Position numbers and translations under genes: made by a program
Part shown: piece after piece, positions 6,707-16,562 of the stretch
Position numbering within the stretch: position 1 is the first letter of the stretch
Layout: every line of letters begins with the position of its first letter
The notes under the pieces: model-generated
The model's database searches: none
The model's input: only the letters and a program-made list of their open reading frames with translations
What the model was told of the DNA's origin: nothing
Source: an uncultured SAR116 cluster alpha proteobacterium
Lineage (GTDB): Bacteria > Pseudomonadota > Alphaproteobacteria > Puniceispirillales > Marisalimonadaceae
Assembly: GCA_902619615.1 (NCBI GenBank)
Contig: CACNFD010000017.1
Coordinates: 1 to 35,839, forward strand
Length of the DNA: 35,839 bases
Direction: 5' to 3'

Positions 6707-8017
6707 TCAGATAGTATACAACTCAATTTCAGGAAAATATGATTTAAATGAATTTAATTTGTCATTAGATATTTTAGCTTTAACTTTATTACCTACAAAA
6801 TTTATATCACAAAAGGTTTCATTATATACATATGAATTTTTATACAACCATGAAGAAATTTTATATGCGTCAACAGGTATATAAAAAAGAATGTTAGTAA
6901 ATTTTTTTTCCGCTAAATTTTCAATATAATTTTTTAAATTTTCAATGCCTTTAGAAGTTAAAGCTGAGGTTTTAACAGAGTTATTCTTATATTTCATTCT
7001 AATATTACTCACGTCGGAATTTAAATCACATTTATTAAAAACATTTATTATTTTCTTTTCTAACACTTCTTCAGTAAAACCAATAGAAATTAATGTATCA
7101 AAAACTAACTTTGCTTGGTTTTCTATATTAGGATTTGATAAATCATGAACTAACAATAAGTAATCAGCTGTAAAGAGTTCTTCTAAAGAAGATTTAAATG
7201 AATCAATTAACTCTGTAGGTAATGCTGATATAAAACCAACAGTGTCTGAAATTATAATCTTTCTATTATCAGACATTTTTATAGAACCCATTTTTGTATC
7301 TAAAGTTGCAAAAACCATATCTTTAACTAATATGTCTGAAGATGTAAGATTGTTAAAAATTGTTGACTTTCCACTATTGGTATAACCAACCAATGAAAAC
7401 ATCAAAGAAGAGACATTTTTTCTAAGTTTTCTTTGAACTTCTCTTGTTTGTGTCACCTTTAAAAGTGATTTTTTTAATTGTTTAATTTTTGAATTAATTA
7501 TTCTTTTATCTAATTCTATCTGTCTTTCACCAGGGCCACCTACTTTGCTTAATCCCCCCCTTTGTCTTTCAAGATGTGTCCAAGACCTTACAAGTCTAGT
7601 TTTTTCAAAACTTAAATTAGCTAGTTCAACTTGTAATTTACCTTCTTTAGTTTTGGCTCTTAGACCAAAAATTTCAATAATAAGTTGTGTCCTATCTATG
7701 ATTTTTTTTTGAAAAATTCTCTCTAAGTTTCTTTGCTGTATTGGAGATAAAGAACAATCAAAAACTATTAAATCTACGTAGCTTAGATCAAAATTATTTT
7801 TAACTTCATTAGCAACTGTATTATTAATTAATAATGACGATTTTGGGATACTGATATTAATTACTTTTTCAAAAACAATGGATGCATCTAATGCTTGTAC
7901 AAGACTTCTAGTTTCAGACGAACGCGAAATGAAATTCTTTTGGTTAAAAATATCATTTTGCGAAAATTTGTTATTTTTAAAAATAGGAAGAATTAAAAAT
8001 GTATTATAATTAATCAT
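6707..8017 (-). CDS. hflX: Ribosome-associated GTPase HflX
   Basis: HflX is a GTPase that binds the 50S subunit and splits stalled ribosomes. The 436 residues show the N-terminal HflX domain, the linker motif GGPGERQIE (160-168), then the G domain with G1 GYTNSGKST (211-219), G3 DTVG (258-261) and G4 NKCD (328-331). A run of seven C on the plus strand (7554-7560) encodes the RGG just before the GGPGE motif. In relatives hfq lies immediately upstream; here the upstream gene is the aminotransferase, fifteen bases away, and hfq is absent. The frame is intact and all GTPase motifs are present. Confidence 0.96.
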   Translation of the reverse strand: MINYNTFLILPIFKNNKFSQNDIFNQKNFISRSSETRSLVQALDASIVFEKVINISIPKSSLLINNTVANEVKNNFDLSYVDLIVFDCSLSPIQQRNLERIFQKKIIDRTQLIIEIFGLRAKTKEGKLQVELANLSFEKTRLVRSWTHLERQRGGLSKVGGPGERQIELDKRIINSKIKQLKKSLLKVTQTREVQRKLRKNVSSLMFSLVGYTNSGKSTIFNNLTSSDILVKDMVFATLDTKMGSIKMSDNRKIIISDTVGFISALPTELIDSFKSSLEELFTADYLLLVHDLSNPNIENQAKLVFDTLISIGFTEEVLEKKIINVFNKCDLNSDVSNIRMKYKNNSVKTSALTSKGIENLKNYIENLAEKKFTNILFYIPVDAYKISSWLYKNSYVYNETFCDINFVGNKVKAKISNDKLNSFKSYFPEIELYTI

Positions 8018-8032
8018 TAAATATTAATAACT

Positions 8033-8875
8033 CTAAAATTTTTTGAAATATAAATTTCTTAATTCAATTGATGTTTTGCCAATTATACCATTACTAATTT
8101 TAATATTGTCAATTTCAATAATTGGCGTAACAAATGAAGAAGCACTAGTTAAAAATACTTCCTTAGACTCTAACATTTCGTCTTTTGTGAATTTTTTTTC
8201 TAACATTTTAAAATTATTGTTTTTTGCAAATTGGGCAATAGTTTTCCTAGTAATTCCAGATAAGATTTTTCCATCAATTTCACGAGTTAAAATTTCATTG
8301 TTGTTATTAATAATCCAAATATTTGAACTAGATCCTTCAGTTACATAACCTTCATGATCAATAAAAATTCCTTCATAAGCATGATTTTGATTAGCATAGG
8401 TTTTAGCAAGAACATTTGGCAATAACTGAGTTGTTTTAATGTCTGGTCTAGACCATCTGTTGTCAAACACAGTAATTGCCTTTACACCTTTTATATCGTC
8501 GTCTATGTTATTTTTCTTCTGTGAAACAATCATTGTTAATATTGGTTTAGAATTGAGTTTGAAATAACTATGATTTCTGTCAGCAATACCTCTTGAAACC
8601 TGAATATAAATACTACCAAAATTAACTCTATTTAATTTAAATAGATTTTTTATAATAATTTTAAGTTGCTGTTTTGATAAATGAAATTTGATGTTTATTA
8701 ACTTTAGAGAGTTAAATAATCTATTTATATGACCTTCATAATCATAGAAAACGCCGCTATTATAAAAAATTACTTCATAAACAGCGTCACCAAAATGATA
8801 ACCTCTGTCATTTATGTGAATTTTAGCGTTTTGAATATTACAATATACTCCATCTATATAAGATATATTTGCCAT
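8033..8875 (-). CDS. dat: D-amino-acid aminotransferase (class IV PLP enzyme)
   Basis: A fold-type IV PLP aminotransferase of about 280 residues. The likely Schiff-base lysine is Lys147 in DIKTTQLLPNVLAK, and GYVTEGSSSNIWI plus DGKILSGITRKTI form the phosphate-binding part. These features favour a D-alanine/D-amino-acid aminotransferase over branched-chain IlvE. The gene occupies the place where D-amino-acid aminotransferases are found in other alphaproteobacteria, after trkA. I choose the ATG at 8875-8873, which shares one base with the trkA TGA stop (TGATG), rather than the TTG one codon earlier; the arrangement implies translational coupling with trkA. Confidence 0.87.
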   Translation of the reverse strand: MANISYIDGVYCNIQNAKIHINDRGYHFGDAVYEVIFYNSGVFYDYEGHINRLFNSLKLINIKFHLSKQQLKIIIKNLFKLNRVNFGSIYIQVSRGIADRNHSYFKLNSKPILTMIVSQKKNNIDDDIKGVKAITVFDNRWSRPDIKTTQLLPNVLAKTYANQNHAYEGIFIDHEGYVTEGSSSNIWIINNNNEILTREIDGKILSGITRKTIAQFAKNNNFKMLEKKFTKDEMLESKEVFLTSASSFVTPIIEIDNIKISNGIIGKTSIELRNLYFKKF

Positions 8876-10286: not shown

Positions 10287-11681
10287 TTATTTATTAATAT
10301 TTATATCTAAGTCTTTCAATTTTCTGTGTAATGCGGATCTGTCCATACCAATAAATGTTGAAGTTTTTGCAATGTTGCCTTTAAATCTTTTTAATTGTTC
10401 TTTTAAATAATTTTCTTCAAAAACTTTTCTTGCTTCTTTTAATGACAAACTTAATTGGTTTGAAATGGCATTTGGTTTAGCTTTATTACTGTAACCTAAT
10501 ATCTCTGGTGGCAAATGTGAAGGCAAAATAATAAAATTTTTTTGATTGCCATACATAATAATTAACCATTCTATAATATTTTTTAGTTGTCTTGCATTAC
10601 CAGGCCATTCATAATTTTCTAGAATCACACGTGTTTCAGAAGAAAATTTAAGAATGTTACTTCCAAAATCTTTTGATAAAAAGTTCAAAAAATGATTAAT
10701 TAATCCATTAATATCTTCTCCTCTTTTATTTAGTGGTGGAACTTCGATTGGAGCAACTGAAAGCCTATAAAATAAATCTTCTCTAAGAGAACCATTTTGC
10801 ATAGATTTTAATAAATTCTTATTACTAGCTGATATAATTCTAACATCAACATTAATTTTTTTATTGGAACCAATCTTATAAAAACTTTGATCTTGGATTG
10901 CTTGAACTAACTTGCCTTGTGTTTGTATGGGTAAATCACAAATTTCGTCAAAAAAAAGTGTTCCATAATTTGCTTGTTCAAACAAACCTACACTAGATTG
11001 ATTGTTTTTTTCTTCGATATTAGTTTCATTCCAACCGAATAATACCTGCTCAACTCTCTCTGGAGACAAAGTTGCACATGATGCAACTATAAAAGGAAAA
11101 GAATTCCTATTAGATTTTTTATGGATCCATCGTGCAATAAGCTCTTTCCCAGACCCAGATGGGCCTGTAATTAAAACTCTACTATTAGTAGAGGCTATTT
11201 TATTTATTTTTTGATTTATATTTTTAAATATCACTGATTTATCAATTAACTTCATACGTTCATTTTCTTTTAACTCAAAATCTAAAACTTTTAATTTTAA
11301 ACTTCTTTCTTTAAGAGCTTTTTCTACCATTAATATTAAACGATCAGCTTTAAAAGGTTTTTCAATAAAATCATAAGCACCATTTTTTGCAGCTTTCATA
11401 GCTGTTTCAATATTTCCGTGACCAGACATCATTAAAACAGGAATTTGTAGATCATAATTTTGGCTAAAACTTAAAAGTTTAAGACCAGCGTTAGTATCAT
11501 TGTTCATCCATATATCAGTTATCATAAGAGTGATATTTTCATTTTTAAGAATATTCACTGCCATATCAAAGTTTGTTGCAATTATTGCATTATAATTTTC
11601 ATCTTTAAGTATTTCTGCAACCATTTCACAAATATCAATCTCATCATCTACAACAAGAATAGAAATTTTATTTTTTAACAT
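10287..11681 (-). CDS. ntrX: Response regulator NtrX
   Basis: NtrX is the partner of NtrY in nitrogen and redox signalling. The 464 residues comprise a receiver domain (phospho-acceptor Asp56, Lys108), an AAA+ domain with Walker A GPSGSGK (173-179) and Walker B FFDE (243-246), and a Fis-type helix-turn-helix at the C-terminus (GNIAKTSTFIGMDRSALHRKL). Where sigma-54 activators carry GAFTGA after LFG, this protein reads LFGWNETN and then a short gap, so the sigma-54 loop is absent. From recall, NtrX proteins often lack it. The first 14 bases overlap the end of ntrY, indicating coupled translation. Confidence 0.95.
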   Translation of the reverse strand: MLKNKISILVVDDEIDICEMVAEILKDENYNAIIATNFDMAVNILKNENITLMITDIWMNNDTNAGLKLLSFSQNYDLQIPVLMMSGHGNIETAMKAAKNGAYDFIEKPFKADRLILMVEKALKERSLKLKVLDFELKENERMKLIDKSVIFKNINQKINKIASTNSRVLITGPSGSGKELIARWIHKKSNRNSFPFIVASCATLSPERVEQVLFGWNETNIEEKNNQSSVGLFEQANYGTLFFDEICDLPIQTQGKLVQAIQDQSFYKIGSNKKINVDVRIISASNKNLLKSMQNGSLREDLFYRLSVAPIEVPPLNKRGEDINGLINHFLNFLSKDFGSNILKFSSETRVILENYEWPGNARQLKNIIEWLIIMYGNQKNFIILPSHLPPEILGYSNKAKPNAISNQLSLSLKEARKVFEENYLKEQLKRFKGNIAKTSTFIGMDRSALHRKLKDLDININK

Positions 11682-13890
11682 TTACTTTCTTCTTCTTTTT
11701 AAATTTTGATACAAGTGGAAAACTTAGAACTACGGATGTTCCATTTGAGTCTTTAAGTGGTTTAATTACCATTGATCCGTTATGATCATCTATAATTTTT
11801 TTTGTAATTGCTAATCCTAGACCTGAATTACCTACCTTTGTTGTATAATAAGGTTCTGTGATTTTTGAAATAATAGAATTTTCAATACCAGTCCCATTAT
11901 CATTAACTTTAACAAATACTATATCATTGTCTATTCCAAATATAATTGAAATATGACCATTTTTAATTTCATTTAATGTAATATTTTCGTATGAATTTTT
12001 AATTAAATTAGTGCAAGCTTGTCTTACTTGCTTTTCATCAGCCATTATAAAAGCTTTATCCATTACCTCGTCAATTTCAATTTTAACATTCTTGAATGAA
12101 GAAATCATTGGATTGATATAATCATGTATTATTTTGTTTATATTTATCAATTTTAATTTAGGTGATGGCATCCTTGCAAATGAAGAAAACTCATTAACCA
12201 AATGATCAATATCATCGACTTGACGAGTTATCATATTTAAAGACTCTTCAAAAAACACTTTATCTATTTTTTTACCACTATTAAGTCTTTTTATTAGACG
12301 TTCAGAACCCAACCTTATTGGAGTAAGAGGATTTTTGATTTCATGCGCAATTCTTCTTGCAATATCAGACCAAGCACCCATTTTTTGAGCTTCAATCAAA
12401 CTTGTTATATCATCAAATGTTAATACATAACCTAAAATTTGAGTTTCAGATTTTTGAACTACTAATCTAGTTATTAAATTTAAAACCTTATCATTTCTAA
12501 TAATCTGAATTTTATCTTCAACAACATTTTTTTCTGTTCTAATTAAGCTTTCTACTAAATATTTAAACTCAGGTACTATTTCTAAAATTGATTTACCATA
12601 ATCTTTATTAATTGAAATGTTTAGTAATTGCATAGCTGTTAAATTTGGAAGATTAATTTTTAAATCTTTATCAAGTCCAACTACACCAGAATAAACACCT
12701 GAGAGAACTAATTCAGAGAACTTTCTTCTTTTATCTAATTGATCATTTGCATGTTCTAAATCAACTCTATTTGATTTAAGATCAGAAATCATTAAATTAA
12801 ATGCTTGGACTAACCGTTTAATTTCATTGACATTAATTTTAGACAACACATTATTTGATATTTTGTAATCTAAATTACCGCCACCAACTTCTTCAGCTCC
12901 CCTTATAAGAGAACTTATTGGTTCAAGTAACCTGTTTGCTATATTCAAACCTATAATTAATGAACTAAATAATAGAATAATTGTAATTAATATAAAAATA
13001 AATATGAAAGAAATTTTTATATCAAATTGTTTTAATTCTATAGATTGATAATCAGAAACTGCTATTGAGGTACTTTCTATTGCGTTAAGTACTTTTTGAT
13101 CAACAAATCTAGTTATTAATAAATAAGCATCAATAAATTGAGATAATTTTATAAACGCACGAATTTTATTTGAATCATCTTCTTTAACAATAAAAATTTC
13201 ACCACTATTTGCTATATCATAATATTTTTGTGGAACTTCTGTATAAGTGTATTCAAACACAAATTCAGAAAAGGCTAACACATTTCCAATTGAGTCAATA
13301 ATTACAGCCTCTGATAAATTATGCTTTCTAGTATATTTATTAAGAAAGTTATTGAATTTAGTTTTATTTGATGAAAGAAAAGTAGAATTTAAATTAATTA
13401 AATTATTAAGTTCTAAAATATCTCCCCTAATTGCACTTTGATGTTCATTTAAATATTGATTTGCTACTTCTACAGATTGAGAAATTGCAGTTGAAATTTT
13501 TTTATTAAACCAGCCACTTAAAGCAGTGTCAAAAATAAAAATTGAAAAAAAAGCTATGAATAATGTAGGTGTCAATGCTATTGCAGAAAAAATAATTAAG
13601 ATTTTCTTTTGAAGCTCTTGGCCTGCTTTTTTTAATTTTATTTGTTTGAAAATATTTAAGAAATATTTAAAAAATACATGAAATAATAAAGCAATAATAA
13701 AAACAAAAATTGTTAGTAAAATAATAAATAAGTAATAGTTGTCTTTAAAAAGTTTAAATTGATATAATGTACTGTATATAAATAAACAAAATACTAAAGA
13801 TATTAAAAAAAATAAAAAAAATAATTTTTGTCTGTAAATATTTAAAAAAAATTGTTTCATTTTATAACCTAATATAGCACTGTATACCAT
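11668..13890 (-). CDS. ntrY: Nitrogen/redox sensor histidine kinase NtrY
   Basis: A membrane sensor kinase of 740 residues. Three hydrophobic segments lie in roughly the first 120 residues, then a periplasmic loop, a fourth segment near 294-318, a HAMP linker (RLLEPISSLIRGAEEVGGG), a PAS-like region, the dimerisation helix with His516 in AHEIKNPLTP, and an ATPase domain with the N box LIKNSYEN and G boxes DNGTGI and GNSGLGLAI. The annotated start is an ATG at 13890; a second in-frame ATG at 13860 (MKQFFL) would remove ten residues and is equally plausible. It sits 29 bases after ntrC and overlaps ntrX by 14 bases. Confidence 0.95.
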   Translation of the reverse strand: MVYSAILGYKMKQFFLNIYRQKLFFLFFLISLVFCLFIYSTLYQFKLFKDNYYLFIILLTIFVFIIALLFHVFFKYFLNIFKQIKLKKAGQELQKKILIIFSAIALTPTLFIAFFSIFIFDTALSGWFNKKISTAISQSVEVANQYLNEHQSAIRGDILELNNLINLNSTFLSSNKTKFNNFLNKYTRKHNLSEAVIIDSIGNVLAFSEFVFEYTYTEVPQKYYDIANSGEIFIVKEDDSNKIRAFIKLSQFIDAYLLITRFVDQKVLNAIESTSIAVSDYQSIELKQFDIKISFIFIFILITIILLFSSLIIGLNIANRLLEPISSLIRGAEEVGGGNLDYKISNNVLSKINVNEIKRLVQAFNLMISDLKSNRVDLEHANDQLDKRRKFSELVLSGVYSGVVGLDKDLKINLPNLTAMQLLNISINKDYGKSILEIVPEFKYLVESLIRTEKNVVEDKIQIIRNDKVLNLITRLVVQKSETQILGYVLTFDDITSLIEAQKMGAWSDIARRIAHEIKNPLTPIRLGSERLIKRLNSGKKIDKVFFEESLNMITRQVDDIDHLVNEFSSFARMPSPKLKLININKIIHDYINPMISSFKNVKIEIDEVMDKAFIMADEKQVRQACTNLIKNSYENITLNEIKNGHISIIFGIDNDIVFVKVNDNGTGIENSIISKITEPYYTTKVGNSGLGLAITKKIIDDHNGSMVIKPLKDSNGTSVVLSFPLVSKFKKKKKVNVKK

Positions 13891-13919: not shown

Positions 13920-15356
13920 TTAAGGCTTTCTTTTTTTTACTACTTCAATGCCATATAAATTTATTTTAGATCTTAATGTGTTTCTGTTAAAACCAAGACA
14001 TTTAGATGCCTTTATTTGATTACCTCGAAATAAGTTTAAGGTTGTCTCAATTAAAGGTTTTTCTATTTTAGATATAAAATTGCTGTGTAAATTATTTAAT
14101 GACAAATTCTCATCAAAATCTTTAAAATACTTCTTAAGATAATTTTTAAAATATAATTCTAAATTTTCTTCATATTTATTTCCTTCATCAAATCTATCCT
14201 CTGACAATACTTCTTTAACAAGGGTTAATGGTATATCTTCTGTAGAAGACAACAAACATAATCTTTCAACTACATTTTCTAATTCCCTTACATTACCTGG
14301 CCATGAATATTCTTTTAAAGAATTTAAACCTTCATATGAAATAGATCTTTTTATATTTTTATTTTTATAGTTTCTATTCAAAAAAGATGAAGTTAAATCA
14401 GTTATATCTTCAAATCTATCTTTTAGTGATGGTAATTTAATAGGTACAACATTTAATCTATAATACAAATCTTCTCTAAACAAACCTTTCTCAACATCAT
14501 TTAATATATTTTTTTTTGTAGAAACAAAAATTCTAGTTTTTTCTAAATTTGAATTTTCAGGAAATATTTGTGACAATCCATTTTCAATAAAATTTAATAA
14601 GTTTTTTTGTTGTATGTCAGATAATTCAGTAATATCTTTTATAAATATAGAACTTCCACTTAAATCATTGATATTTTTTATTTCGTTCGAGGTAAAATTA
14701 TTAATTCTGTCAAATAAACTATGATATGAGTAATCATCGAAAAATTTTGAGTCTAAATTGATGAATTGGTTATTTGTATTTGAGCTAAGATCATGTATTG
14801 ATTTAGCGATAAGTTTTTTGCCAGTACCACTCTCACCTGATATTAGCACAGAAAAATTTGTATTAACTATTCTAGAAATTATTTTATAAATTTCTTGCAT
14901 TGCCATCGACTTGCCAACAACCGGACCAGAATCATAAATATTTTTAGCAATTTGATTAGAGCTTTCGGGTTTATTTGTTTTTGATGAGAAGAATGTGCTT
15001 GAAACTAAATTTAATAGTTCATCTAAATCAAATGGTTTAGGTAAGTATTCAAAAGCCCCTTTTTTCTCTGCTCTTACAGCAGTCAATAAAGTTGTTCTAG
15101 CGGACATTACTATAATCTTTAAATTAGGATTGTTTTTTTGAAGTTTGGGCAAAATATCTAGTGCATCACCATCAGGAAGACCAACATCAGTAATTAAAAC
15201 ATCAGCAAAGTCTGATTCAACTAACCTCCACATGCCAGCAGCAGTACCACTAGATTTAACGTTATACCCTGCTCTAGTCAAAGCAGTTGAAATAACTACA
15301 CGAATACTTCTATCATCATCAACGACTATAATATTTTTTACATTTTTAGATTCCAT
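13920..15356 (-). CDS. ntrC: Nitrogen response regulator NtrC with a degenerate AAA+ domain
   Basis: The receiver domain is intact (Asp57 in LITDVGLPDG, Lys107 in YLPKPF) and the C-terminal Fis helix-turn-helix is well conserved (RGNQIKASKCLGFNRNTLRSKI). The central AAA+ domain keeps Walker A GESGTGK (174-180) and GLFREDLYYRLNVVP (291-305). However the region that should read LFGHEKGAFTGA is SLFDRINNFTSNE (213-225), the Walker B Asp-Glu pair is replaced by Lys-Asp in IFIKDI (237-242), and sensor I Asn is Lys in STKKN (279-283). ATP hydrolysis and sigma-54 activation are therefore unlikely (inference). The frame is unbroken and of normal length, so this looks like repurposing rather than a pseudogene. 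It follows ntrB by 19 bases. Confidence 0.92.
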   Translation of the reverse strand: MESKNVKNIIVVDDDRSIRVVISTALTRAGYNVKSSGTAAGMWRLVESDFADVLITDVGLPDGDALDILPKLQKNNPNLKIIVMSARTTLLTAVRAEKKGAFEYLPKPFDLDELLNLVSSTFFSSKTNKPESSNQIAKNIYDSGPVVGKSMAMQEIYKIISRIVNTNFSVLISGESGTGKKLIAKSIHDLSSNTNNQFINLDSKFFDDYSYHSLFDRINNFTSNEIKNINDLSGSSIFIKDITELSDIQQKNLLNFIENGLSQIFPENSNLEKTRIFVSTKKNILNDVEKGLFREDLYYRLNVVPIKLPSLKDRFEDITDLTSSFLNRNYKNKNIKRSISYEGLNSLKEYSWPGNVRELENVVERLCLLSSTEDIPLTLVKEVLSEDRFDEGNKYEENLELYFKNYLKKYFKDFDENLSLNNLHSNFISKIEKPLIETTLNLFRGNQIKASKCLGFNRNTLRSKINLYGIEVVKKRKP

Positions 15357-15375: not shown

Positions 15376-16437
15376 TTAAGATTTCCTTAAAGGAAAATTA
15401 ATACAAAAATTTGTAAAACCTGGATTTGAAGTAACATCTATAACTGCTCCCATTTCTTCTAAACCACTAGCAACTACAGATAAACCAAGACCTTTACCTT
15501 CTTTTTTCGAAGTAACAAAAGGATCAAAAATACTTGATATTAAATTGTTTGAAATTCCAATTCCGAAATCAATTATTTCTATTTGAAGAGGCAGTGGAGT
15601 GGGAACATCTTCTTTTCCAAAAGAAGTTATTTTGTTTGAATTAAAACTAGTTTTAATTTTTATATTACCTTTCTTTTTACTAGCTTCAGTTGCGTTCTTT
15701 AATAAATTAATAATAATCTGTATTAGTAAATTTTTATTAGCAAACAACCTAGGTAAAGATGGATCAAATTCATTGATAAAATTTATTTCTGCCCCAAAAC
15801 TATTTTCTGCAACACGTCTACAGTGATTAAGAATTTCGTGAATATTTAGACTTTCATAATCTAATTTCATATTATTATTGCTAATTTGTTCCATTCTATC
15901 TAATAGTGACTCGATTCTGTCACATTCAATTGATATAAGTTTAGTAAGTTCAAAGGAATTAGATTTATCTTCTAAATCACTTTCAATTAGTTGTGATGCA
16001 CCTTTAATTCCGGCTAGAGGGTTTTTTAATTCATGCATTAACATATCAATCATTGATGAAAATGATCTGGAAATTTTACTATTTATTCTTTGAGACTGAA
16101 ACATTTCTGAAAGAGCTAATTGACTTATCTGAATAATGATCTGATTATTATCAAATGATAAAGGTACTAAATGAACTCTTACTTTTCTATTTGGAAAATT
16201 TAAGTTACTAAAATCTAAACTTTCCTCAGTTAAGCCAACTTTGTTATTTCTTACTCTATTTATTAAATTTAAAATTGGAGAATCACTCTGAACGAATAAG
16301 TCGATTTTTTTTCCAACTATTATATTTGAACTAACACCAAAAAACTCTTCACCGATTTCATTTATATAAATTATCTCATTTGAATTATTTACTAAAAAAA
16401 CTGGAGTTCTTAATTCATTTAAAATATTATTTTCCAT
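15376..16437 (-). CDS. ntrB: Nitrogen regulation sensor histidine kinase NtrB
   Basis: A soluble histidine kinase of 353 residues that normally phosphorylates NtrC under nitrogen limitation and is controlled by PII. It has an N-terminal PAS domain (about 1-110), His135 in MHELKNPLAGIKGA, the N box LLKNATEAS and G boxes DFGIGI and GKGLGLSV. No hydrophobic membrane segment is visible. It is the first gene of an apparent ntrB-ntrC-ntrY-ntrX-trkA-dat-hflX-phosphatase run. In relatives dusB usually precedes it; here a divergent ispDF does. Confidence 0.94.
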   Translation of the reverse strand: MENNILNELRTPVFLVNNSNEIIYINEIGEEFFGVSSNIIVGKKIDLFVQSDSPILNLINRVRNNKVGLTEESLDFSNLNFPNRKVRVHLVPLSFDNNQIIIQISQLALSEMFQSQRINSKISRSFSSMIDMLMHELKNPLAGIKGASQLIESDLEDKSNSFELTKLISIECDRIESLLDRMEQISNNNMKLDYESLNIHEILNHCRRVAENSFGAEINFINEFDPSLPRLFANKNLLIQIIINLLKNATEASKKKGNIKIKTSFNSNKITSFGKEDVPTPLPLQIEIIDFGIGISNNLISSIFDPFVTSKKEGKGLGLSVVASGLEEMGAVIDVTSNPGFTNFCINFPLRKS

Positions 16438-16562
16438 TAGAGAATAGTAGCAATTAAAATTGGTAATTTAAAACGATATTTGATTATAAATTATACAAAT
16501 ATTTGAATTTTCATAAAGATTTCAAAATAAATGCCTAATTTTATGGCAAAATTGAGGTAGGT
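16438..16562. promoter_or_regulatory. Divergent intergenic region between ntrB and ispDF
   Basis: This is the longest gap in the window, about 125 bases, and must hold the start signals for both directions. On the minus strand two TATAAT hexamers lie close together at 16495-16490 and 16488-16483, candidate minus-10 boxes for ntrB, but no good minus-35 stands at 16-18 bases. On the plus strand GAGG lies shortly before the ispDF ATG. A four-base TGCC/GGCA inverted pair near 16540-16558 is too weak to call an operator. Confidence 0.35.

Follow-up and report, generated by a model that had tools for sequence, protein, structure and literature searches.

Degenerate NtrC proteins in the SAR116 order Puniceispirillales and their probable uncoupling from sigma-54

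An NtrC that has lost both the GAFTGA loop and the Walker B Asp-Glu (D-E) pair is encoded in the window, by which we mean the whole stretch of DNA analysed (35,839 nucleotides from an uncultured SAR116 alphaproteobacterium). Judged from its sequence, the protein is probably a phosphorylation-switched regulator that is uncoupled from sigma-54, acts at sigma-70-type promoters and probably binds ATP rather than burning it; moderate confidence is placed in this reading. The initial annotation of the window, made from its letters alone, had also held that this is not an ordinary sigma-54 activator, in agreement with the motif losses and with a presumed glnB promoter that has no -24/-12 element.

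The ntrBC-ntrYX locus

The window genome (2.16 Mb in 59 contigs, 99% completeness) has the gene order ntrB, ntrC, ntrY, ntrX and a trkA-like gene (trkA named by eye) on the minus strand. The genes of the cluster are as follows.

15376..16437, minus strand: ntrB, sensor kinase upstream of ntrC (Pfam, NCBIfam)
13920..15356, minus strand: ntrC, 478 aa, receiver, degenerate AAA+ domain and Fis-type helix-turn-helix (HTH) (Pfam, NCBIfam, alignment)
11668..13890, minus strand: ntrY, sensor kinase (NtrY_N domain)
10287..11681, minus strand: ntrX, without GAFTGA, Walker B D-E present (NCBIfam, sequence reading)

By sequence, the open reading frame (ORF) at 13920-15356(-) is an NtrC orthologue. Its product carries the Pfam domains Response_reg, Sigma54_activat, AAA_lid_14 and HTH_8, and its top NCBIfam model is TIGR01818 ntrC (381.5 bits, under the cut-off of 558.6); the NtrX model NF051870 gives 246.3 bits and does not reach its cut-off of 600. 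The gene has an ntrB partner within an ntrBC-ntrYX cluster, and the protein groups with canonical NtrCs of the same order. The window NtrX lacks GAFTGA as well and has both Walker A and the Walker B D-E. It keeps the pair that the window NtrC does not, so the losses differ between the two regulators of the cluster. Elsewhere in the window, hfq is absent at 8017-8033, between hflX-like and aminotransferase-like genes, while relatives carry hfq near ntrX; an Hfq match was found in 0/25 own-genus genomes (many incomplete) versus 15/16 others of the order.

The GC content of NtrC loci is 23-28% in the window's own family (f1) and in family f3, and 44-65% in families f2 and f4, with the exception of one f4 genus at 34-39%. 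A low-GC, streamlined SAR116 subclade has been described (PMC8547437, in excerpt). The window genome would belong in that subclade, and the GC of the f1 and f3 loci fits this placement.

Motifs lost and kept in the window NtrC

The motifs of the protein lie at the following positions.

15186..15188, minus strand: codon of the phospho-acceptor Asp57, conserved (alignment, selection)
14814..14837, minus strand: residues 174-181, Walker A GESGTGKK, kept (alignment, selection)
14673..14717, minus strand: residues 214-228, GAFTGA-loop equivalent LFDRINNFTSNEIKN, replaced and drifting (alignment, dN/dS)
14622..14654, minus strand: residues 235-245, Walker B segment SSIFIKDITEL, D-E replaced (alignment to solved chains, relatives)
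14505..14531, minus strand: residues 276-284, sensor I segment IFVSTKKNI (STK) (alignment)
14451..14486, minus strand: residues 291-302, arginine-finger segment GLFREDLYYRLN, kept (alignment, selection)
13962..14012, minus strand: residues 449-465, Fis-type HTH KASKCLGFNRNTLRSKI, kept (Pfam, dN/dS 0.025)

Where canonical NtrC has D-E, the window protein has K240-D241. The initial annotation had reported the loss of GAFTGA and of the Walker B Asp-Glu, and alignments to solved chains and to relatives confirm it. HMMER alignments to LuxO (5ep0) and NtrC1 (1ny5 and 4l4u) map GAFTGA and D-E to the same positions, so the motifs are not found elsewhere in the window NtrC, and that possibility was rejected. 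GAFTGA and the D-E pair are absent from 36/36 own-family NtrCs read (a few rows are cut by contig ends). This is the result of the comparison with sister genomes that the annotation had proposed, and on this basis an assembly or sequencing error was rejected. Of the features that mark a sigma-54 enhancer-binding protein, neither the GAFTGA loop nor the Walker B Asp-Glu for ATP hydrolysis is present. A further loss, beyond those noticed at first, is the change to Asp of the Asn in canonical 'NMAAIPRDLIESELFG', which we take to be the glutamate-switch Asn.

The annotation had also listed a sensor I change from Asn to Lys. The Lys is real, but Asn was not the ancestral residue; the position holds His (ATH) in canonical relatives of the same order and His or Asn in other NtrCs, so the Lys is less telling and no invariant Asn has been lost. 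Walker A, Asp57, the arginine-finger segment and the HTH, which had been described as intact, are intact in the alignment, and FREDLYYRLN and WPGNVREL are also retained. The role of GLFREDLYYRLN as arginine-finger segment is presumed from general knowledge of the domain. Asp57 is D in 35/36 own-family rows, the remaining row being truncated. R300 is R in 28/36 and R357 in 27/36 of these rows, which counts against the reading favoured here.

Fold and selection

An AlphaFold2 model of the protein (23 rows, mean pLDDT 80.1) retains the strands and helices of the AAA+ domain, with pLDDT <50 at residues 223-229, the place of the missing loop, and at 265-270. The nearest solved folds are NtrX, NtrC1, NtrC4, LuxO and VpsR, with Brucella NtrX (5m7n/5m7p) at the top.

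Selection was compared by segment in 113 own-genus pairs of >80% identity and in 9 pairs of the canonical family f2. The dN/dS values are relative, as pairs are non-independent, f2 pairs are saturated in dS and own-genus pairs have a dS of 0.7-1.0. The ends have the lowest own-genus values (receiver 0.027, HTH 0.025), followed by the Walker A block (0.071) and the stretch between the arginine finger and the lid (0.092). The segment that runs from Walker B to sensor I is at 0.16, and the GAFTGA equivalent (residues 197-236) is at 0.235, similar to the linker (0.246). The same loop in f2 is at 0.059 (9 pairs, dS saturated). The annotation's view that the ends are under strong selection and that the middle domain was kept rather than deleted is upheld by these values and by the 36/36 own-family rows. 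A pseudogene was rejected by the selection pattern and by rows without internal stops. The constraint is of the pattern expected of an ATP-binding assembly domain without working hydrolysis and without a sigma-54 interface; ATP binding is suggested, not proven, by such a pattern. The annotation's suggestion that the domain was retained for oligomerisation would also agree with it.

A graded series of NtrCs within the order

From the order, 87 NtrCs were read (36 in f1, 8 in f2, 4 in f3 and 39 in f4, with fragments such as those of G040 and G108 excluded); the f2 rows come from 8/12 genomes. Only f2 is canonical (8/8). Outside it, the loop is altered with Walker B kept in 20 NtrCs, and both are gone in 59. 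The f4 rows span most of this range: nine have GAFVGA or GSFVGA with D-E intact, in eleven the loop is replaced but D-E and Walker A are intact, and nineteen have the loop deleted and D-E lost, 12/19 of these also being without the glycine before the P-loop lysine. The four f3 rows all have the loop deleted, D-E lost and the P-loop present. In f1 the loop is replaced and D-E lost in 36/36, with the P-loop present in 35 and changed from K to R in one; GxxGTGK is thus found in 39/40 rows of f1 and f3. Genera g10, g11 and g12 of f1 (10/36 rows) read N-E, D-Q and E-E, with one or both positions acidic, so the pair was lost by different routes within f1; the window pair has its acidic residue, Asp, at the second position. 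That part of the family is still acidic at these positions counts against the favoured reading.

A phylogenetic tree was made from 43 of the 87 order rows, with 11 of 23 named rows as an outgroup and with the affected columns left out. The 43 order rows lie on one side of a 100/99 branch and the 11 other rows on the other. Rooted on these other alphaproteobacterial rows, f1 and f3 are joined (100/98), as are f2 and f4 (97/85); the tree has long branches and uneven composition, and f4 is a single clade with only 89/65. All f2 rows are canonical, as are 8/11 outgroup rows (all but the three from Rhodobacterales). Unless GAFTGA was regained, the order has therefore lost it two or more times. Walker B, too, looks to have been lost separately in f4 and in f1 plus f3, because half of f4 keeps D-E. 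The rows may be read as stages of a rewiring, in the sense of living relatives and not of ancestors.

Such a series could also mean that the AAA+ domain is simply decaying and that NtrC is heading for loss, with receiver and HTH alone being useful. The loop and the Walker B segment do evolve faster than the rest, and the additional glycine change in the twelve Walker-B-less f4 members would fit. We consider this quite improbable, however, given the absence of internal stops, the near-invariant P-loop of f1 and f3, the dN/dS of only 0.07-0.09 in the own-genus Walker A and arginine-finger segments, and the conservation of the DNA sites described below.

Sigma-54 in the window genome and in the order

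The initial annotation had placed the protein in a lineage probably without rpoN. That expectation fails. The window genome has a single intact rpoN (498 aa, E 2.9e-62) with bactofilin-, peptidase- and motAB-like neighbours (named by eye). Its flagellar cluster encodes two divergent enhancer-binding proteins, of which one has the motif GAFTGA and the other GSFTGA. In this cluster a fliK-like gene is preceded at 27 nt by a sigma-54-like element, and one of the two activators at 33 nt; a third such element coincides with the start of a flagellin-like ORF (all gene names by eye); another match in the cluster (C12:51171) falls inside a gene. Searched at <=1 mismatch, the -24/-12 pattern gives 59 matches versus 4 for the reversed pattern. 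The comparison is given no weight as a test, since CG, which occurs in the reversed pattern, is probably rare in such DNA. From its neighbours and these promoter-like elements, the surviving RpoN probably serves flagella. The refutation named in the annotation combined rpoN with functional NtrC-dependent sigma-54 promoters, so rpoN alone does not refute uncoupling from sigma-54; no such promoters were seen at the three operons examined.

Across the order, rpoN was found in 87/121 genomes, many of the 34 misses being incomplete. None was found in G027, G049 and G059, which are 95-99% complete. Loss of rpoN as the cause of the NtrC changes was rejected on the gene's presence in the window genome and in those 87 genomes. 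Among the f4 genomes, G027, G049, G059, G066 and G069 (90-99% complete) gave no rpoN, and neither GAFTGA nor the Walker B D-E is left in the NtrCs read from G027, G049, G059 and G069. In genus g10, a sigma-54 DNA-binding-domain fragment with stops lies directly behind an intact rpoN (G047:C9:58392-58532, G050:C65:12375-12500).

A short, second type of RpoN is found in 11/12 f2 genomes (119-150 bits, complete ORFs of about 434-467 aa) and in 0/109 other genomes of the order, many of which are incomplete. In three f2 genomes it lies in an ilvC-mreB..rodA neighbourhood (named by eye). In G031 and G034 (each 99% complete), a canonical NtrC occurs with the short RpoN only, which is thus the sole partner found for it; no flagellar activators appear among the matches listed for these two genomes, which suggests that none are there. 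The association of short RpoN with canonical NtrC is strong (7/8 genomes with canonical NtrC), within one clade only; the eighth, G056 (76% complete), has a canonical NtrC and a -24/-12 element with the long RpoN only. In an RpoN tree of 27 rows, several of them on long branches, the stem of the short copy is long and its placement has 83/81 support, which fits gain or loss. That GAFTGA was lost because the short RpoN was lost is accordingly not accepted: the association is confined to one clade, the tree is indecisive and G056 is an exception.

Upstream regions of glnB, ntrB and amtB

The sigma-54 score and its threshold of 17 (of 19.5), the palindrome consensus and the 32-37 nt window used below were chosen after seeing the data. 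At <=3 mismatches, the palindrome TGCCTA-N5-TAGGCA is found before glnB-glnA in 50/51 genomes (f1 12/12, f2 9/10, f3 2/2, f4 27/27), and the sole miss, G051, is cut by a contig end; at <=2 mismatches it is found in 42/51. Shuffled regions reach these levels in 13% and 1.25%, respectively. The glnB site of the window genome has 3 mismatches, the level that 13% of shuffles reach; since own-genus sites are degenerate, the case for them rests on position and conservation. The pattern TGCYTAN5TARKCA is matched exactly at just two places in the 2.16-Mb genome: before glnB, and at C14:26466 inside the first part of a homoserine-dehydrogenase-like ORF (named by eye).

Strong -24/-12 elements (score >=17, within 130 nt of glnB) are found in 4/10 f2 genomes (G025, G034, G043 and G056), an example being TGGCATGAAAGTTGC, about 50 nt before glnB. 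The same score is reached before glnB in 0/41 genomes of f1, f3 and f4, where the highest is 16.5 (G110) and shuffles reach the threshold in 2%; these include 0/12 own-family genomes and 0/6 genomes with a GAFVGA NtrC. In f2 genus g5, AGAACC-N4-ATTGC is found at -39 to -43 before glnB in 5/5 genomes, with a score of 14.0. This score is reached by chance in other families, so the variant counts as a promoter only by conservation. The tenth f2 genome in the count is G051. Before ntrB and amtB, no score >=17 was found in the own family (0/20 and 0/6, respectively) or in f2 (0/6 and 0/3); as the canonical relatives are also low there, the promoter contrast is seen at glnB only. The operator stayed, and strong sigma-54 promoters are seen only with canonical NtrC.

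The g5 glnB promoter has AGAACC at -24, not TGGCAC, in all five genomes (G028, G031, G037, G040, G045). The short RpoN of the same genus has a changed RpoN box in 3/3 read (L196 7409-8731, L199 7552-8913, L373), with ARRTVAKYR replaced by TARAVAKRR, TPRAIAKHR or TARAIAKHR. This nearly invariant reader and the element it recognises may have changed together.

Might sigma-54 promoters still be driven in some unusual way, by mixed rings with NtrX or a flagellar activator, or by another loop? The presence of rpoN would allow it, and in Caulobacter, HTH-mutant NtrC alleles raise sigma-54-dependent flagellar genes despite the missing GAFTGA (PMC12421884, in excerpt). Against this, the best score in the own family is 15.0, reached at G041 glnB and at the window genome's ntrB, Walker B is gone too, and the window NtrX is itself without GAFTGA. 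Such a mechanism is judged highly improbable.

Two elements lie before ntrB in the window.

16532..16548, minus strand: candidate NtrC site TGCCATAAAATTAGGCA, some 110 nt before the start codon of ntrB, differing from TGCCTAN5TAGGCA at 2 positions (site search)
16481..16498, minus strand: TTGTATAATTTATAATCA, downstream of the candidate site, readable as one or more sigma-70-like hexamers, as a weak further copy of the site, or as both (mostly conserved at ntrB across the genus)

The sites keep to a narrow range of positions. In the own family the glnB palindrome starts at -99 to -111 (12/12); in the own genus the best ntrB site is at -102 to -116 in 19/20, with 2-4 mismatches, and the amtB palindrome is at -104 to -107 in 6/6 genomes (one with 4 mismatches). 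These counts come from an unconstrained search, in which the best match before G007 ntrB (4 mismatches) lies at -57; for the comparison of sequence downstream of the sites, palindromes were sought between -125 and -90. In the other families no comparable site was found before ntrB (20 regions) or amtB (8 regions), the best matches having 3-5 mismatches and being scattered. The ntrB and amtB palindromes are an own-genus trait. Before glnK-amtB, the 5/5 f4 genomes fetched (L239-L243) have a conserved palindrome GATGCAAAAAACGCATC, with small changes, that is unlike the glnB palindrome.

A -35-like TTG lies 32-37 nt after the palindrome in 31/38 own-family promoters, with 5.9 expected from shuffles, a test that counts related genomes separately; the misses are 5/12 glnB and 2/20 ntrB promoters. 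No -10 at one fixed spacing was found in the own-family promoters. If the TTG is the -35, the operator centre would be near -80 from the start site. A centre near -80 resembles the arrangement of class I activators. The initial annotation had proposed action at sigma-70 promoters or as a repressor. The first part agrees with the absence of a -24/-12 element at glnB, while the repressor part is not favoured by the position of the sites. It is nonetheless conceivable, though we think it unlikely, that NtrC mainly represses, or that it has a dual role and blocks sigma-70 promoters while another factor activates. Caulobacter NtrC both activates and represses (PMC10274813, PMC12421884, both in excerpt), and the second conserved element of the ntrB promoter overlaps a TATAAT-like sequence. 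In most promoters, however, the better palindrome is upstream of the -35-like sequence, the usual place of an activator, and Caulobacter glnBA expression needs NtrC (PMC10274813, in excerpt).

Discussion

The favoured reading of the window NtrC as a sigma-70-type activator could work as follows. NtrB would phosphorylate Asp57, and the receiver, together with an AAA+ domain that probably still binds ATP (P-loop and first arginine finger kept), would form a dimer or oligomer on the palindrome. NtrC would bind predicted palindromes related to TGCCTA-N5-TAGGCA, which in its own genus precede the start codons of glnB-glnA, amtB-glnK and ntrB by about 100-115 nt. From there it may contact RNA polymerase carrying the housekeeping sigma factor, the presumed partner being sigma-70, and would activate, rather than repress, by recruitment, with no remodelling of a sigma-54 closed complex and with ATP presumably bound without hydrolysis.

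At close to even chances, we tentatively propose that this one order preserves the steps by which a regulator moved, without leaving its glnBA operator, from enhancer-driven, ATP-burning activation through sigma-54 to recruitment-type activation through sigma-70. At the first step NtrC would be canonical, with -24/-12 promoters and a second RpoN of its own; the second would have GAFVGA, and the third a replaced loop with Walker B intact. In the fourth neither would remain, and in the low-GC families ATP would be a structural ligand only. Nitrogen control would thus have given up the sigma-54 machinery, with sigma-54 itself kept for flagella. The conversion of a sigma-54 activator into a sigma-70 activator could then be studied in natural variants, in several states within one order. 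The cultured strain 'Ca. Puniceispirillum marinum' IMCC1322 (taken as genome G030) has one of the middle states, with the loop lost and Walker B kept, and the series offers a natural test of whether the NtrC AAA+ domain needs ATP binding alone to activate. It also brings a caution: an ntrC gene in an rpoN-bearing genome does not imply sigma-54 control of nitrogen genes.

Comparison with known systems

Beyond the order, 70 NtrCs were read, 30 of them with the highest scores and 40 taken from lower down the list, and so not a random sample; 63 are canonical, 6 lack GAFTGA alone and 1 (G193) lacks GAFTGA and D-E. rpoN was found with 3 of the 7 GAFTGA-less NtrCs and not found with 4; for the canonical ones, none was detected in 3/63. 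Among the NtrCs read, the Walker-B-less state is thus rare outside the order and common inside it. In the open-licence literature searched, no naturally Walker-B-less NtrC lineage, graded relatives or paired promoter difference was found. By word search of the SAR116 papers, the text obtained of PMC8547437 does not contain 'sigma' or 'nitrogen regulat', and that of PMC12262181 does not contain 'rpoN' or 'nitrogen regul'. Loss of GAFTGA in NtrC is already known from Rhodobacter and Caulobacter. What is new here is the state without Walker B, together with the graded relatives and the promoter contrast.

The closest parallels are the NtrCs of Rhodobacter capsulatus and Caulobacter, which lack GAFTGA and act at sigma-70 promoters, those of Caulobacter controlling glnBA, whose expression requires NtrC, and glnK-amtB (PMC10274813, in excerpt). 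According to the same excerpt, ATP binding rather than hydrolysis is essential for R. capsulatus NtrC, whereas Caulobacter NtrC needs the conserved residues of both Walker motifs, so hydrolysis can matter in a sigma-70-type NtrC. Like the NtrC of Rhodobacter capsulatus and those of the Rhodobacterales compared, the window protein has a receiver, a P-loop and an HTH but no GAFTGA. In six named Rhodobacterales NtrCs (a seventh, frame-broken row, L061, was dropped), the loop is deleted and D-E kept (6/6), whereas in the window NtrC the loop is replaced and D-E lost. We take the genera of these six to be Rhodobacterales. The Caulobacter crescentus NtrC resembles that of the window in having no GAFTGA while other activators of its genome, FlbD and TacA, have it; unlike the window NtrC, which has no Walker B D-E, it depends on both Walker motifs (available excerpts).

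Alphaproteobacterial NtrX has the same domain order as the window NtrC, and Brucella NtrX has been solved with ATP and with ADP; Caulobacter NtrX, in the excerpts available, is without GAFTGA, as is the window NtrX. The window NtrC nevertheless fits the ntrC model better than that of NtrX, and a separate NtrX is encoded two genes away. Vibrio cholerae VpsR, a GAFTGA-less relative described in excerpt as acting at sigma-70 promoters, matches the window NtrC in both sequence and fold. Its signal and regulon differ from those of NtrC.
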